From contig NZ_NHOY01000104.1 of the NCBI RefSeq assembly GCF_002252755.1, positions 1-64,000 on the forward strand: DNA of 64,000 nt. The letters run 5' to 3'. Positions 3,721 to 43,506 of this stretch are shown one piece after another (position 1 is the stretch's first letter; each line of letters opens with the position of its first letter). Under the pieces are notes generated by a model that worked only from the letters and a program-made list of their open reading frames with translations, had not been told where the DNA came from and made no database searches. The position numbers were made by a program, and so were the translations under genes. Origin of the DNA: Halorubrum sp. Hd13. GTDB lineage: Archaea > Halobacteriota > Halobacteria > Halobacteriales > Haloferacaceae.

Positions 3721-4950
3721 ATGCAGTACAACTACAAGTATCGACTCGACCCGTCAGAAGCCCTCCACCAGGAACTCTGCTACCATGTCGATACCTGTAG
3801 GCAACTGTACAACCATGTCCTCTACCTGCTCAACGACGCAGACGACATTCCTGCACGCTACGAGGTGCAGGGACGACTCCCCGATCTCAAATCGTGGTGG
3901 GACGACCTCGAAGACGTTCACTCGAAAGTGTTGCACATGGTCGTCAAGCGTGTCTACGACAACCTCTCCACGCTCAAAACACAGAAAGAGAACGGACGCG
4001 CTGTGGGGATGCTCAAGTGGAAACCTCCCCGGGAGTATCGGTCGCTTACCTACAACCAGTCCGGCTTCGAACTCAAGAATACGAGTGGTCGGTCCGTGCT
4101 GTGGTTGAGCAAAATCGGCGAGATTCCAATTCGCCTCCATCGAGACATCCCTGAGAACGCGACCATCAAACAGGTCACCATCAAACGGGAGCCAACGGGG
4201 GAGTGGTACGCTACGTTCGGTATCGACGTGGACGAAGACTCCCCCAACAAACCGGAGACGCCCGCGAAGGTCGTCGGTATCGATGTGGGGATTATCAAGT
4301 ACGCCCACGACACCGATGGGTACGCCATCGAGAGTCCTGACTTCAGCGAGGAGCGCAACCGACTCGAACGCGCCCAACGCGACCTCTCCCGAAAGGAATA
4401 CGGCTCGAACAACTGGGAGAAACAGCGAAAGGTCGTAGCCGAACGCCACGCTGACCTGAAGCGGAAGCGACGAGACTTCCTCCACAAGTTGTCGAACTAC
4501 TACGCCACCGAGTACGATTTGGTGGCGGTCGAGGACTTGGACGCAAAGGGACTGCTTGAACTTCCCGGCAACTCTCGCAATCGAGCGGGAGCTGCGTGGG
4601 GGACATTCCTACGGATGCTCGAGTACAAGTGCGAGCGCGAGGGAACGCATTTCGTTGCGGTTGACCCGAAAAACACAACAAAAATATGCGCGTCCTGCGG
4701 TGTCAAGACAGACAAACCGCCGTGGGTTCGTGAACAATCGTGTCCCGCGTGTGGGTTCGAGGCGGATAGGGACGCGAATGCGGCGTGGAACATCCTTTCT
4801 CGTGGTCTCGAAGATTTAGGAGTGGGACACTCCGAAGTAACGCCTGTTGAGACTGCGCTCCCTGTGGATACACCCGTATCTGCAAAGCGCGTCGTGGAAA
4901 CAGGAAGCCCAACCCTCAAGCAGCGACCGGCGTTAGCCGTGAGCGAGTAG
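3721..4950 (+). CDS. tnpB: TnpB, RNA-guided endonuclease of IS200/IS605-family element
   Basis: A 409-aa OrfB/TnpB protein. The RuvC-like catalytic triad looks complete: D188 in VVGIDVG, E271 in VAVEDLD and D351 in ADRDANAAWN. A zinc ribbon is formed by C323-x2-C326 and C341-x2-C344. TnpB proteins are programmable nucleases guided by an RNA from the element right end (reRNA or omegaRNA), cutting next to a transposon-adjacent motif and promoting element retention. The C-terminal tail after the RuvC domain (about residues 360-409, ending LKQRPALAVSE) is typical of haloarchaeal copies and overlaps the expected guide-RNA gene. The gene has lower GC and different codon choice from its neighbours, supporting horizontal transfer. 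No frameshift or stop is seen, so the nuclease may be active. Confidence 0.93.
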   Translation: MQYNYKYRLDPSEALHQELCYHVDTCRQLYNHVLYLLNDADDIPARYEVQGRLPDLKSWWDDLEDVHSKVLHMVVKRVYDNLSTLKTQKENGRAVGMLKWKPPREYRSLTYNQSGFELKNTSGRSVLWLSKIGEIPIRLHRDIPENATIKQVTIKREPTGEWYATFGIDVDEDSPNKPETPAKVVGIDVGIIKYAHDTDGYAIESPDFSEERNRLERAQRDLSRKEYGSNNWEKQRKVVAERHADLKRKRRDFLHKLSNYYATEYDLVAVEDLDAKGLLELPGNSRNRAGAAWGTFLRMLEYKCEREGTHFVAVDPKNTTKICASCGVKTDKPPWVREQSCPACGFEADRDANAAWNILSRGLEDLGVGHSEVTPVETALPVDTPVSAKRVVETGSPTLKQRPALAVSE

Positions 4951-9264: not shown

Positions 9265-9327
9265 TCGGCGAATCACTCTAAACCCCCAGCCGGTCGGGTA
9301 TAAACGGTTGATACCGGGTCGGCGGTG
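9265..9327. repeat. Partial duplicate of the 5' module of repeat copy 1
   Basis: GAATCACTCTAAACCCCCAG at about 9270-9289, followed by CCGG, is repeated as GAATCACTCCAAAGCCCCAG at about 9327-9346, followed by CCGG, where the full element begins. Between them GGTAT and ATACC form a small stem around a TATAAA-like sequence (9299-9304). The partial unit lacks all later modules. The TATAAA sits roughly 25-30 nt before the full element and could be its promoter. Confidence 0.65.
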
Positions 9328-9330
9328 AAT

Positions 9331-9660
9331 CACTCCAAAGCCCCAGCCGGGAGGCGGGCGCACGCTCGCTGCGCTCCTCAGTCGCTCGTTTCACTCGCTC
9401 CCTGCGGTGCTTCCGTCGCCTGCGCCCGCCTCCCGGCTGCCCCTTTGCGTCCACCCGACCGCAACCGCACCGCACCTTACCTCACGCCTCCCCAGCCTCG
9501 GCGGACGGCCCGGCGCGGCTCCGCCCGCGCCGGACCGCCGCCTCCCTCGCACGCGCTCCTCGTGGCCGCCTTCGGCGACCACTCGAAGGCGCGCAGGGCG
9601 AGAGCAAAGCTCTCGCTTGCAGCCGGCGGCAGAGCCGCCGGCGACGCCGACGGCACCGCG
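9331..9660 (+). repeat. Structured intergenic element, copy 1
   Basis: First of three related elements (others at 23409-23730 and, inverted, 43120-43327). Modules in order: P1 CAAAG (9336-9340) with CTTTG (9443-9447); facing CCC/CCC internal loop; P2, a 19-bp perfect stem (9344-9362 with 9421-9439) around a simple-sequence loop; a conserved C-rich strand (9460-9500) with a 10-nt insertion relative to the other copies; P3, about 17 bp (9500-9518 with 9524-9541, one bulge and one mismatch); then TCCCTCGC; P4 GTGGCCGCC-TTC-GGCGACCAC (9562-9582). Two extra triloop hairpins follow: GCGAGAGC-AAA-GCTCTCGC (9598-9616) and GCCGGCGGC-AGA-GCCGCCGGC (9622-9642). It ends six bases before the convergent ribB stop codon. 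Whether it acts as RNA or DNA is unknown. Confidence 0.85.
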
Positions 9661-22144: not shown

Positions 22145-23380
22145 GTGGCGCTGCTCGACGTCGGCGTCATGTTCGCCGCGGTCGCGGTCGCCGGGTGGGT
22201 CGCGAACCGCGCCGGTCAGTCCGTGATCCCCTTCTATATCGTCGCCGGGATGCTACTCGGGGAGTTCGTCCTCGGCCGGCTCTCCCTGCCGGCGGTCGGG
22301 ACCGTCTACGTCCCCGAGACGGAGTTCATCGCGCTCGGCGCGGAGCTCGGGATCGTCTTCCTCCTGTTTTTCCTCGGGCTGGAGTTCAACCTCGACCGCC
22401 TGCTCGCGCGACGGCGCCAGATCGGGACCGCGGGGACGATCGACCTCGCGAACTTCGGGGCCGGGCTCGTCCTCGGGTGGCTCGTCTTCGGCGCGTTCCT
22501 CCCGGCGTTTCTGACCGCCGGGATCGTCTACATCTCCTCGTCGGCGGTGATCACGAAGTCGCTCATCGACCTCGGCTGGATCGCCAACGACGAGGCGGAG
22601 CCGCTGCTCGGGACCCTCGTCTACGAGGACCTGTTCATCGCCGTCTACCTCGCCGTGGCCTCGGCGCTCGTGCTCGGCGGCGGCGACGTGGGCGCGGCCG
22701 CGGTCGACGTCGGTATCGCCGTCGGCTTCATCCTCGTGCTGCTAGGGGCGGTCCAGTTCGGCACGCCCGCGTTCGACCGGCTGCTGGCGACCGACAACCC
22801 GGAGTTCGTCGCGCTCAGGTCGATCGCGACCGTGGTGCTCGTCGCCGGCGCGGCGCTCGCGCTCGGCGTCAGCGAGGCGGTCGCCGCCTTCTTCGTCGGG
22901 ATGGCGTTCGCGTCGACGGAGTACGCCCACGGGGTCGAGACGCTGCTCGAACCCGTCCGCGACACGTTCGCGGCGGTGTTCTTCTTCTGGATCGGGCTCG
23001 TCACCGACCCGCTCCTGTTCGGCGGCGTGGCGGCGCTGATCGCGCTCGCGGTGCTCGTGACGACGCCGACGAAGCTCGTCACCGGCTTCTTCGCCGGGCG
23101 CGCCTTCGACCTCGACGCCAAGCGGTCGACCCGCGTCGCGCTCGGGATGACGACCCGCGGGGAGTTCTCGCTGATCATCGCGACGGTCGCCGTGACCGGG
23201 GCCGAGGCGGGGACGTTCGACCCGGCGGTCGCGCAGACGATCAACGCGTTCGCGGTCGGCTACGTCCTCGTGATGGCGATCCTCGGCACGACGCTGATGC
23301 AGTACTCCGGGCCGTTCGAGTCGATCGCGGTCTCGTGGCTGGATCGCGGTGCCGGTGATGCGGATGGCGATCGTTTATAA
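22145..23380 (+). CDS. CPA2 family cation:proton antiporter (KhtU/Kef-like)
   Basis: An integral membrane antiporter (411 aa, about 12 hydrophobic segments) of the monovalent cation:proton antiporter-2 family. Signatures: IPFYIVAGMLLGEFVLG, GAELGIVFLLFFLGLEFNLDRLL, SSSAVITKSLIDLGWI, and AVFFFWIGLVTDPLLFGG. It starts with GTG at 22145. It has no fused RCK domain; that role is probably taken by the TrkA-C protein encoded just before it. Likely role is K+ or Na+ export and pH homeostasis. The TAA stop is embedded in the TTTATAA of the element that follows. Confidence 0.92.
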   Translation: MALLDVGVMFAAVAVAGWVANRAGQSVIPFYIVAGMLLGEFVLGRLSLPAVGTVYVPETEFIALGAELGIVFLLFFLGLEFNLDRLLARRRQIGTAGTIDLANFGAGLVLGWLVFGAFLPAFLTAGIVYISSSAVITKSLIDLGWIANDEAEPLLGTLVYEDLFIAVYLAVASALVLGGGDVGAAAVDVGIAVGFILVLLGAVQFGTPAFDRLLATDNPEFVALRSIATVVLVAGAALALGVSEAVAAFFVGMAFASTEYAHGVETLLEPVRDTFAAVFFFWIGLVTDPLLFGGVAALIALAVLVTTPTKLVTGFFAGRAFDLDAKRSTRVALGMTTRGEFSLIIATVAVTGAEAGTFDPAVAQTINAFAVGYVLVMAILGTTLMQYSGPFESIAVSWLDRGAGDADGDRL

Positions 23381-23751
23381 ATAGCCGACGATGGATCGAC
23401 GGTAAACACCTCCAAAGCCCCAGCCGGGAGGCGGGCGCACGCTCGCTGCGGTCCTCGGTCGCTCACTCCGCTCGCTCCCTGTGGTCCTTACGTCGTCATC
23501 AGAACGCTCCGCGTTCTGATTGGCTCACGAGAGCAGAGCTCTCGTGAACGCCTGCGCCCGCCTCCCGGCTGCCCCTTTGAGTCCCACCCCGCACGGCACC
23601 GCAACCGCACCTCACGCCTCCCCAGCCTCGTCGCTGGCACCCTCCGCTTCGCTTCGGGAGCCAGCGACTCCCTCGCGCGGCGCTCTTCGCGGCCGCCATC
23701 GGCGGCCGCTCGGAGGCGCGCGCCACCGCACTATCGTTTATTTATAAATAG
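23374..23751 (+). repeat. Structured intergenic element, copy 2, between TTTATAAATAG repeats
   Basis: Core element 23409-23730. P1 CAAAG (23413-23417)/CTTTG (23575-23579); CCC/CCC internal loop; P2 19-bp stem (23421-23439/23553-23571), identical to copy 1. The P2 loop holds two hairpins absent from copy 1 at this position: ATCAGAACGC-TCC-GCGTTCTGAT (23498-23520) and TCACGAGAGC-AGA-GCTCTCGTGA (23525-23547). The conserved C-rich strand at 23600-23630 is identical over 31 nt to copy 3. P3 is GTCGCTGGC/GCCAGCGAC (23630-23638/23660-23668); P4 is GCGGCCGCC-ATC-GGCGGCCGC (23689-23709). TTTATAAATAG flanks it at 23374-23384 and 23741-23751; the first could be a TATA box for rightward transcription. 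The 3' end faces the DUF302 stop codon. Confidence 0.87.
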
Positions 23752-43119: not shown

Positions 43120-43327
43120 GACGCGGTCGGCGCGTGCCGCCGAGCGCCCACCGGGCGCGAGGTGCACGCGCGAGGGAGTCGGACCGGCGGACACGCGCCG
43201 GTCCGACGAGGCTGGGGAGGCGTGAGGTGCGGTTGCGGAGCGGGCGAGAGGGACTCAAAAGGGCAGTCGCCGGCGGCGTCGCCGCCGGCCGCTAGAGGCG
43301 CGAGCCGTCGCGGCTGGGGCTTTTGGG
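43120..43327 (-). repeat. Structured intergenic element, copy 3 (inverted)
   Basis: Read on the minus strand it has the same module order as copies 1 and 2. P1 is now CAAAA/TTTTG (plus-strand 43321-43325 and 43256-43260): one extra A matched by one extra T. C-rich internal loop with CAG/CTG is retained. The P2 loop contains GCCGGCGGC-GTC-GCCGCCGGC (43269-43289), the same hairpin that lies at the 3' end of copy 1. The conserved strand at 43207-43237 is identical over 31 nt to copy 2. P3 is a perfect 12-bp stem GTCGGACCGGCG/CGCCGGTCCGAC (43178-43189/43196-43207), a different sequence from the other copies. P4 is GCGCGTGC/GCACGCGC (43130-43137/43164-43171) enclosing GCGCCC/GGGCGC. It runs toward the photolyase stop codon. 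Confidence 0.85.
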
Positions 43328-43506
43328 GCGGTCACCGCGGTGTCACCGATGTATCGGCGAGCGGCTGGGTCGTTGGAGGAGTCCGTTACCGGTCCGGTGT
43401 CAGCACCGATTATTTATATACGGATGTACGAGCCGTCAGAGCGCTCCTCTCCGCACCCTCGACCGATCCGACGGTTTAAAACTCTCACCTTTGCAAGCAT
43501 CCGTTA
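43328..43506. promoter_or_regulatory. cysS promoter region, possibly bidirectional
   Basis: TTTAAAAC at about 43474-43482 lies about 27 nt before the cysS ATG and is its likely TATA box. A second AT patch, ATTATTTATATACGG (43409-43423), is nearly symmetric and could drive leftward transcription toward element copy 3, about 90 nt away. No gene lies between. Confidence 0.5.

Follow-up and report, generated by a model that had tools for sequence, protein, structure and literature searches.

A large and apparently undescribed family of dispersed hairpin elements in the intergenic DNA of Halorubrum

Three elements in the window (the whole 64,000-nt stretch of Halorubrum DNA that was analysed) are members of a large dispersed family of non-coding hairpins, apparently undescribed, in which the fold is kept while the sequences of the stems change almost completely. 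The 21-nt core of the elements, CCTCACGCCTCCCCAGCCTCG, is matched three times in this 64-kb window and was not matched in 100 shuffles. An earlier note on this DNA had described a three-copy element. The count holds for the window but not for the genome, where searches and fetched stretches gave 68 core matches (up to 2 mismatches) and 82 covariance-model hits at E≤0.01, numbers that are swollen by related sequences and, for the model, depend on rough E-values. The core was matched in all 52 Halorubrum genomes searched, at 9–194 matches per genome, and a reversed-pattern control gave no match. In a class-wide search 53 of 292 genomes had the core, and covariance-model hits were obtained in 15 of the 59 haloarchaeal genera sampled, the members outside Halorubrum being weaker. 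Most of the named genomes recovered in a scan with one core variant belong to Halorubrum; two were Halorussus and one was Halogranum.

The elements were read 5′ to 3′ on the strand used in the earlier note (plus for copies 1 and 2, minus for copy 3; called here the reading strand). Their order is a TTATAA box, 37 nt, CCAAAG, then P1, P2, the C-rich strand, P3, TCCCTCGC, P4 and CACCGC, the whole measuring about 250–330 nt with three hairpins and a fixed strand of 21–31 nt. P1 (CAAAG/CTTTG) encloses a C-rich internal loop, and the P2 arm is topped by a ladder of very short helices; this apical part is inverted in a few copies. A second TTATAA-like box lies ~12–15 nt past the end of P4, and the TTATAA box flanks the element as a direct repeat. 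The leader unit, which consists of the box and the 5′ strand of P1, is often tandemly repeated, with spacings of 51, 54, 57, 60 to 69 nt; in 91 of 93 pairs the spacing is divisible by 3. Such tandem units are present upstream of elements at window positions 9278–9335 and at loci L007 and L172, for example. Coding in these units was rejected: none of the frames stays open throughout, the best being open in 64 of 93, and conservation has no period of 3. Four conserved runs of G are located in the linker, the core and both strands of the P1 loop; these might form a G-quadruplex. The P1 runs are absent from relatives in the family labelled f6. Two loci of that family (L092 and L095 in genome G196) illustrate that elements can be head to head, with the leader GCTAGCTACTGC in place of P1.

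Copy 1 is preceded by a degenerate tandem unit (CTAAACCCCCAGCCG, 9278–9292, plus), 57 nt before the P1 motif, and by a TATA-like box GTATAA (9298–9303, plus), which was assigned from its sequence and the spacing rule, 37 nt before CCAAAG. On the same strand follow the P1 strands CAAAG (9336–9340) and CTTTG (9443–9447), the invariant C-rich core strand (9480–9500), the P3 hairpin (9500–9541), the invariant linker CTCCCTCGC (9542–9550) and P4 (9551–9594), whose usual ending is cut off by a double hairpin that belongs to a second repeat family and is inserted there (9595–9646, plus). The covariance-model hit (9473–9595, E 2.1e-7) covers P4, linker, P3 and core on the minus strand, the proposed folding strand. 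Copy 2, on the plus strand, has a TTATAA box at 23375–23380, 37 nt before CCAAAG, P1 strands CAAAG (23413–23417) and CTTTG (23575–23579), a double hairpin of another kind inserted in P2 (23496–23550), the invariant C-rich strand (23600–23630), P3 GTCGCTGGC...GCCAGCGAC (23630–23668), the linker TCCCTCGC (23669–23676) and a downstream TTATAA box (23742–23747); the model hit is on the minus strand (23603–23724, E 1.8e-13). In copy 3, on the minus strand, a degenerate upstream tandem unit at 51 nt spacing (43362–43376) is followed by P1 CAAAA/TTTTG with a shortened P2 (43256–43325), the invariant C-rich strand (43207–43237), P3 GTCGGACCGGCG...CGCCGGTCCGAC (43178–43207) and the linker TCCCTCGC (43170–43177), and the model hit lies on the plus strand, its proposed folding strand (43129–43234, E 1.8e-17).

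Direct reading of the three copies bore out the module order, the positions and the paired but differing stems given in the earlier note, including P1 as CAAAG/CTTTG in two copies and CAAAA/TTTTG in the third, the P3 stems GTCGCTGGC/GCCAGCGAC and GTCGGACCGGCG/CGCCGGTCCGAC, and the identity of the 31-nt C-rich strand between copies 2 and 3. Its anatomy stands for the modules as such, but in copy 1 P4 is interrupted towards its 3′ end by the separate double hairpin at 9595–9646, and copy 3 is without most of P2.

The double hairpin of copy 1 represents a second repeat family of ~50 nt, of the type AGCGAG..TGGCAGCCGG..CCGGCGAC, with stems that are again variable. Its members occur in either orientation at a small number of fixed insertion borders within the main element, as at window 9595–9646 and at loci L005, L006, L016, L023, L026, L063, L167 and L185. 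The double hairpin at 23496–23550 is a different one and reads TCATCAGAACGC..GCGTTCTGATTGGCTCACGAGAGC..GCTCTCGTGAACG, and similar DNA is present in plasmids of Natrinema, Haloterrigena, Haloferax and other haloarchaeal genera.

Covariation was scored on an alignment of 50 copies, taken on the complement of the reading strand, with a named structure of 27 pairs. Double changes were observed in 18 of the 27 pairs, and the covariation score was 0.451 as compared to 0.143 for shuffled and 0.05–0.11 for slid pairings. A covariance model built from these copies and run on 100 loci yielded 107 matches, 103 of them outside the training set. In the 107-copy alignment, which is fitted to the model and leans towards the structure, double changes were seen in 24 of 27 pairs with a score of 0.497, against 0.136 shuffled and at most 0.07 slid. 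P1 and the pair next to the T.T mismatch also covary: P1 is CAAAG/CTTTG in 120 copies, CGAAG/CTTCG in 17 and GAAAG/CTTTC in 6, and the adjoining pair is C-G in 77, G-C in 29, T-A in 4 and unpaired in 3. Fixed features are the tandem GA/GA of P4 (46 of 50 copies) and a bulged C (50 of 50). The covariance model and genome search proposed in the earlier note have returned many hits with strongly covarying pairs.

The strand on which the fold forms was assessed from the mismatches that remain in the stems. Every constant mismatch sets a purine against a purine on the complement of the reading strand: the P1 loop has G.G, P2 has A.A and P4 has tandem G.A, which is also frequent in P3 and P2. When only Watson-Crick pairs were scored, single mismatches on the reading strand were A.C rather than G.T at 13:1 in P3 and 40:8 in P4, counts which are not independent events; this excess of A.C indicates wobble pairs on the complementary strand. 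The predicted folding energy of copy 2 is −204 kcal/mol for the complement and −168 kcal/mol for the reading strand (z −7.7 and −7.2), and that of copy 3 is −131 and −101 kcal/mol (z −2.9 and −1.8). These mismatch patterns and folding predictions suggest that the G/A-rich strand, and not the strand chosen in the earlier note, is the more likely one to fold, but wobbles in P1 favour the reading strand (CGAAG/CTTTG in 5 copies versus CAAAG/CTTCG in 1).

The leader bears on the same question. Of 110 TTATAA boxes lying 25–45 nt upstream of P1, 82 stand at exactly 37 nt, and a purine (G/A) is conserved on the reading strand near the start predicted from the box, an arrangement that suggests transcription of the reading strand. 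The elements could be a multi-copy structured non-coding RNA that starts ~8 nt before P1 and folds into P1/P2, P3 and P4. Such a transcript would include the entire fold, covariation is independent of strand, and the P1 wobbles agree with it. The conserved mismatches, however, would become C.C, T.T and T.C, unfavourable combinations in RNA; the wobbles of P3 and P4 favour the opposite strand; the box recurs downstream of P4 and may not be a promoter; and so large a family of RNA genes, each with a unique set of stems, would be unusual. Taken together, an RNA gene family appears a possible but rather doubtful explanation. The downstream TATA was considered as a promoter of the G/A-rich strand and set aside, as transcription from it would begin inside P4. 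The reading that we favour, albeit at somewhat less than an even chance, is an old dispersed hairpin repeat resembling REP/REPIN, new to haloarchaea and kept for its fold. The promoter-like TTATAA with its start purine and the P1 wobbles on the reading strand count against this REP/REPIN-like reading, for which neither a binding protein nor a mobilising enzyme was identified.

Comparison of orthologous loci was informative about the history of the elements. At the copy 1 locus the core is present in the same orientation in 20 of 30 species, and the remaining species have mostly remnants or variants, with one assembly gap. About a dozen of the 30 species carry an element at the copy 2 locus, and few of those compared carry one at the copy 3 locus; no clean empty site that would define the element ends was found at the loci compared. 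Stem sequences evolve more quickly than the genes on either side, with pairing kept. All 18 orthologues at the copy 1 locus have distinct P3 hairpins, and 192 distinct P3 hairpins occur among 230 copies. A common P3 is found in 42 copy pairs, none of which has P4 in common. This pattern of sharing, along with the inverted tips of P2, indicates that, beyond stepwise compensation, modules are replaced or exchanged in their entirety. The compensatory change proposed in the earlier note is thus upheld in that covariation keeps the structure, but entire stem modules are also swapped or substituted, even among the orthologues of a single locus.

A recent mobile element was rejected, as the four genomes sampled (G000, G001, G022 and G010) had 0 of 780, 0 of 253, 0 of 153 and 0 of 190 near-identical pairs respectively, at 18–40 copies per genome, the sets of G022 and G010 being their best-scoring copies. 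Between species, one pair of copies from G022 and G010 is 96% identical. For the single-strand mobile element suggested in the earlier note no sign of recent movement was found, though such an element may be the origin of the family. One form of it would be a decayed non-autonomous element of the IS200/IS605 type, or PATE, with hairpins that a Y1 transposase formerly recognised in single-stranded DNA. The PATEs of Haloquadratum, with repeats inside their palindromes (PMC3119063), resemble the Halorubrum elements with their double hairpins. The genome itself has 3 Y1 transposase and 12 TnpB loci, each Y1 gene having a TnpB gene on the same contig within about 1.5 kb; the window carries a TnpB-type gene of an IS1341/IS605 element (3721–4950, PF07282 match). 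The ends of the element had no match at 14 of these 15 loci, and at the remaining one the hit belongs to a complete, distinct element some 1 kb from the transposase. No solitary RAYT-type gene was found in this genome. A relationship to the IS605-type elements of this genome was rejected on these grounds. Stems that covary long after insertion are also unlike those of dead elements, and we consider a decayed PATE distinctly improbable. A virus origin was likewise rejected, as neither phages nor IMG/VR viral contigs gave a match.

Genes around the elements were called with a home-made codon model. Of 155 cores scored, 154 are intergenic, and the contexts in Halorubrum and one sister genus were convergent for 50 copies, tandem for 43 (18 in one orientation and 25 in the other) and divergent for 19. 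Among gaps of 150–900 nt, 14 of 42 with a core are convergent, as compared to 8 of 90 without; the element closely fills its gap. A copy on an annotated plasmid of Halorubrum salinarum has convergent genes on both sides. A 3′-UTR element of one gene was rejected, since orientation in tandem gaps is unbiased. The enrichment in convergent gaps and their close filling could reflect a structure that marks transcript ends, or insulates, between convergent genes. Yet 55% of the copies lie outside such gaps, the tandem-gap orientations show no preference, 82 copies are few for a whole genome, and insertions are also best tolerated in convergent gaps. This explanation is the least probable of those weighed.

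The statement of the earlier note that no RNA of this form had been described is consistent with our searches: Rfam had nothing above threshold (best match E=0.31, far below its cut-off), and no paper on the family was found in a literature search that reached a minority of the subscription journals. The ERIC/IRU sequences of enterobacteria are intergenic imperfect palindromes of about 126 bp with conserved stems, often at conserved loci and of unknown function. The Halorubrum elements are likewise intergenic, imperfectly palindromic and often conserved in locus, but ERIC/IRU have one palindrome with conserved stems and the stems here are hypervariable. In the attC sites of integrons one strand folds, with conserved structure and variable sequence. 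These traits are common to both, whereas the Halorubrum element has long fixed strands and no gene cassettes were seen. REP/REPIN sequences are extragenic, occur in tens to hundreds of copies with conserved segments beside hairpins whose stems change in compensation, and are predicted to fold as single-stranded DNA or mRNA (PMC3116915). The Halorubrum family is similarly extragenic, dispersed and of many copies; its stems change in a compensatory manner, and the segments that flank them are conserved. It differs in its size, three hairpins, long fixed strand and TATA-boxed tandem units, in the lack of a solitary RAYT-type transposase in the genome, and in its haloarchaeal host. The PATEs of Haloquadratum walsbyi are many, transposase-free and near-terminally palindromic, with SMRs inserted into those palindromes, ends related to IS605 transposons, and some copies over 90% identical (PMC3119063). 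Both families are haloarchaeal, non-coding, palindromic and dispersed with smaller repeats inside palindromes; unlike in PATEs, neither ends related to the IS605-type loci of this genome nor copies >90% identical within the genomes sampled were found in the Halorubrum family. The family may therefore be filed with the dispersed extragenic palindromes, by likeness and not by descent.

In the REP/REPIN-like reading, the covarying hairpins P1/P2, P3 and P4 are connected on one strand by fixed single-stranded segments. The G/A-rich strand would fold in its single-stranded state, its purine-purine mismatches serving as the fixed internal loops, and a putative host protein would recognise the fold together with the fixed strands. 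As a first guess, the bound fold may organise DNA or transcript ends between convergent genes. Recombination through shared borders could exchange hairpin modules. If only pairing is read, stems would be free to differ, which in turn would limit recombination between copies. The family would have spread by transposition long ago, and selection on the fold would maintain it now. A more far-reaching proposal, which we regard as unlikely, is a structure-read platform in which P2, P3, P4 and double-hairpin cassettes are swapped between loci and species at fixed single-stranded borders under a dedicated host factor; if true, this would amount to a genome-wide nucleic-acid system of a novel type. 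The family is present in every Halorubrum genome sampled, with no described family, paper or annotation found for it in these searches. Its orthologous loci provide ready-made natural experiments, and the persistence of dispersed hairpin repeats thereby becomes testable in haloarchaea.
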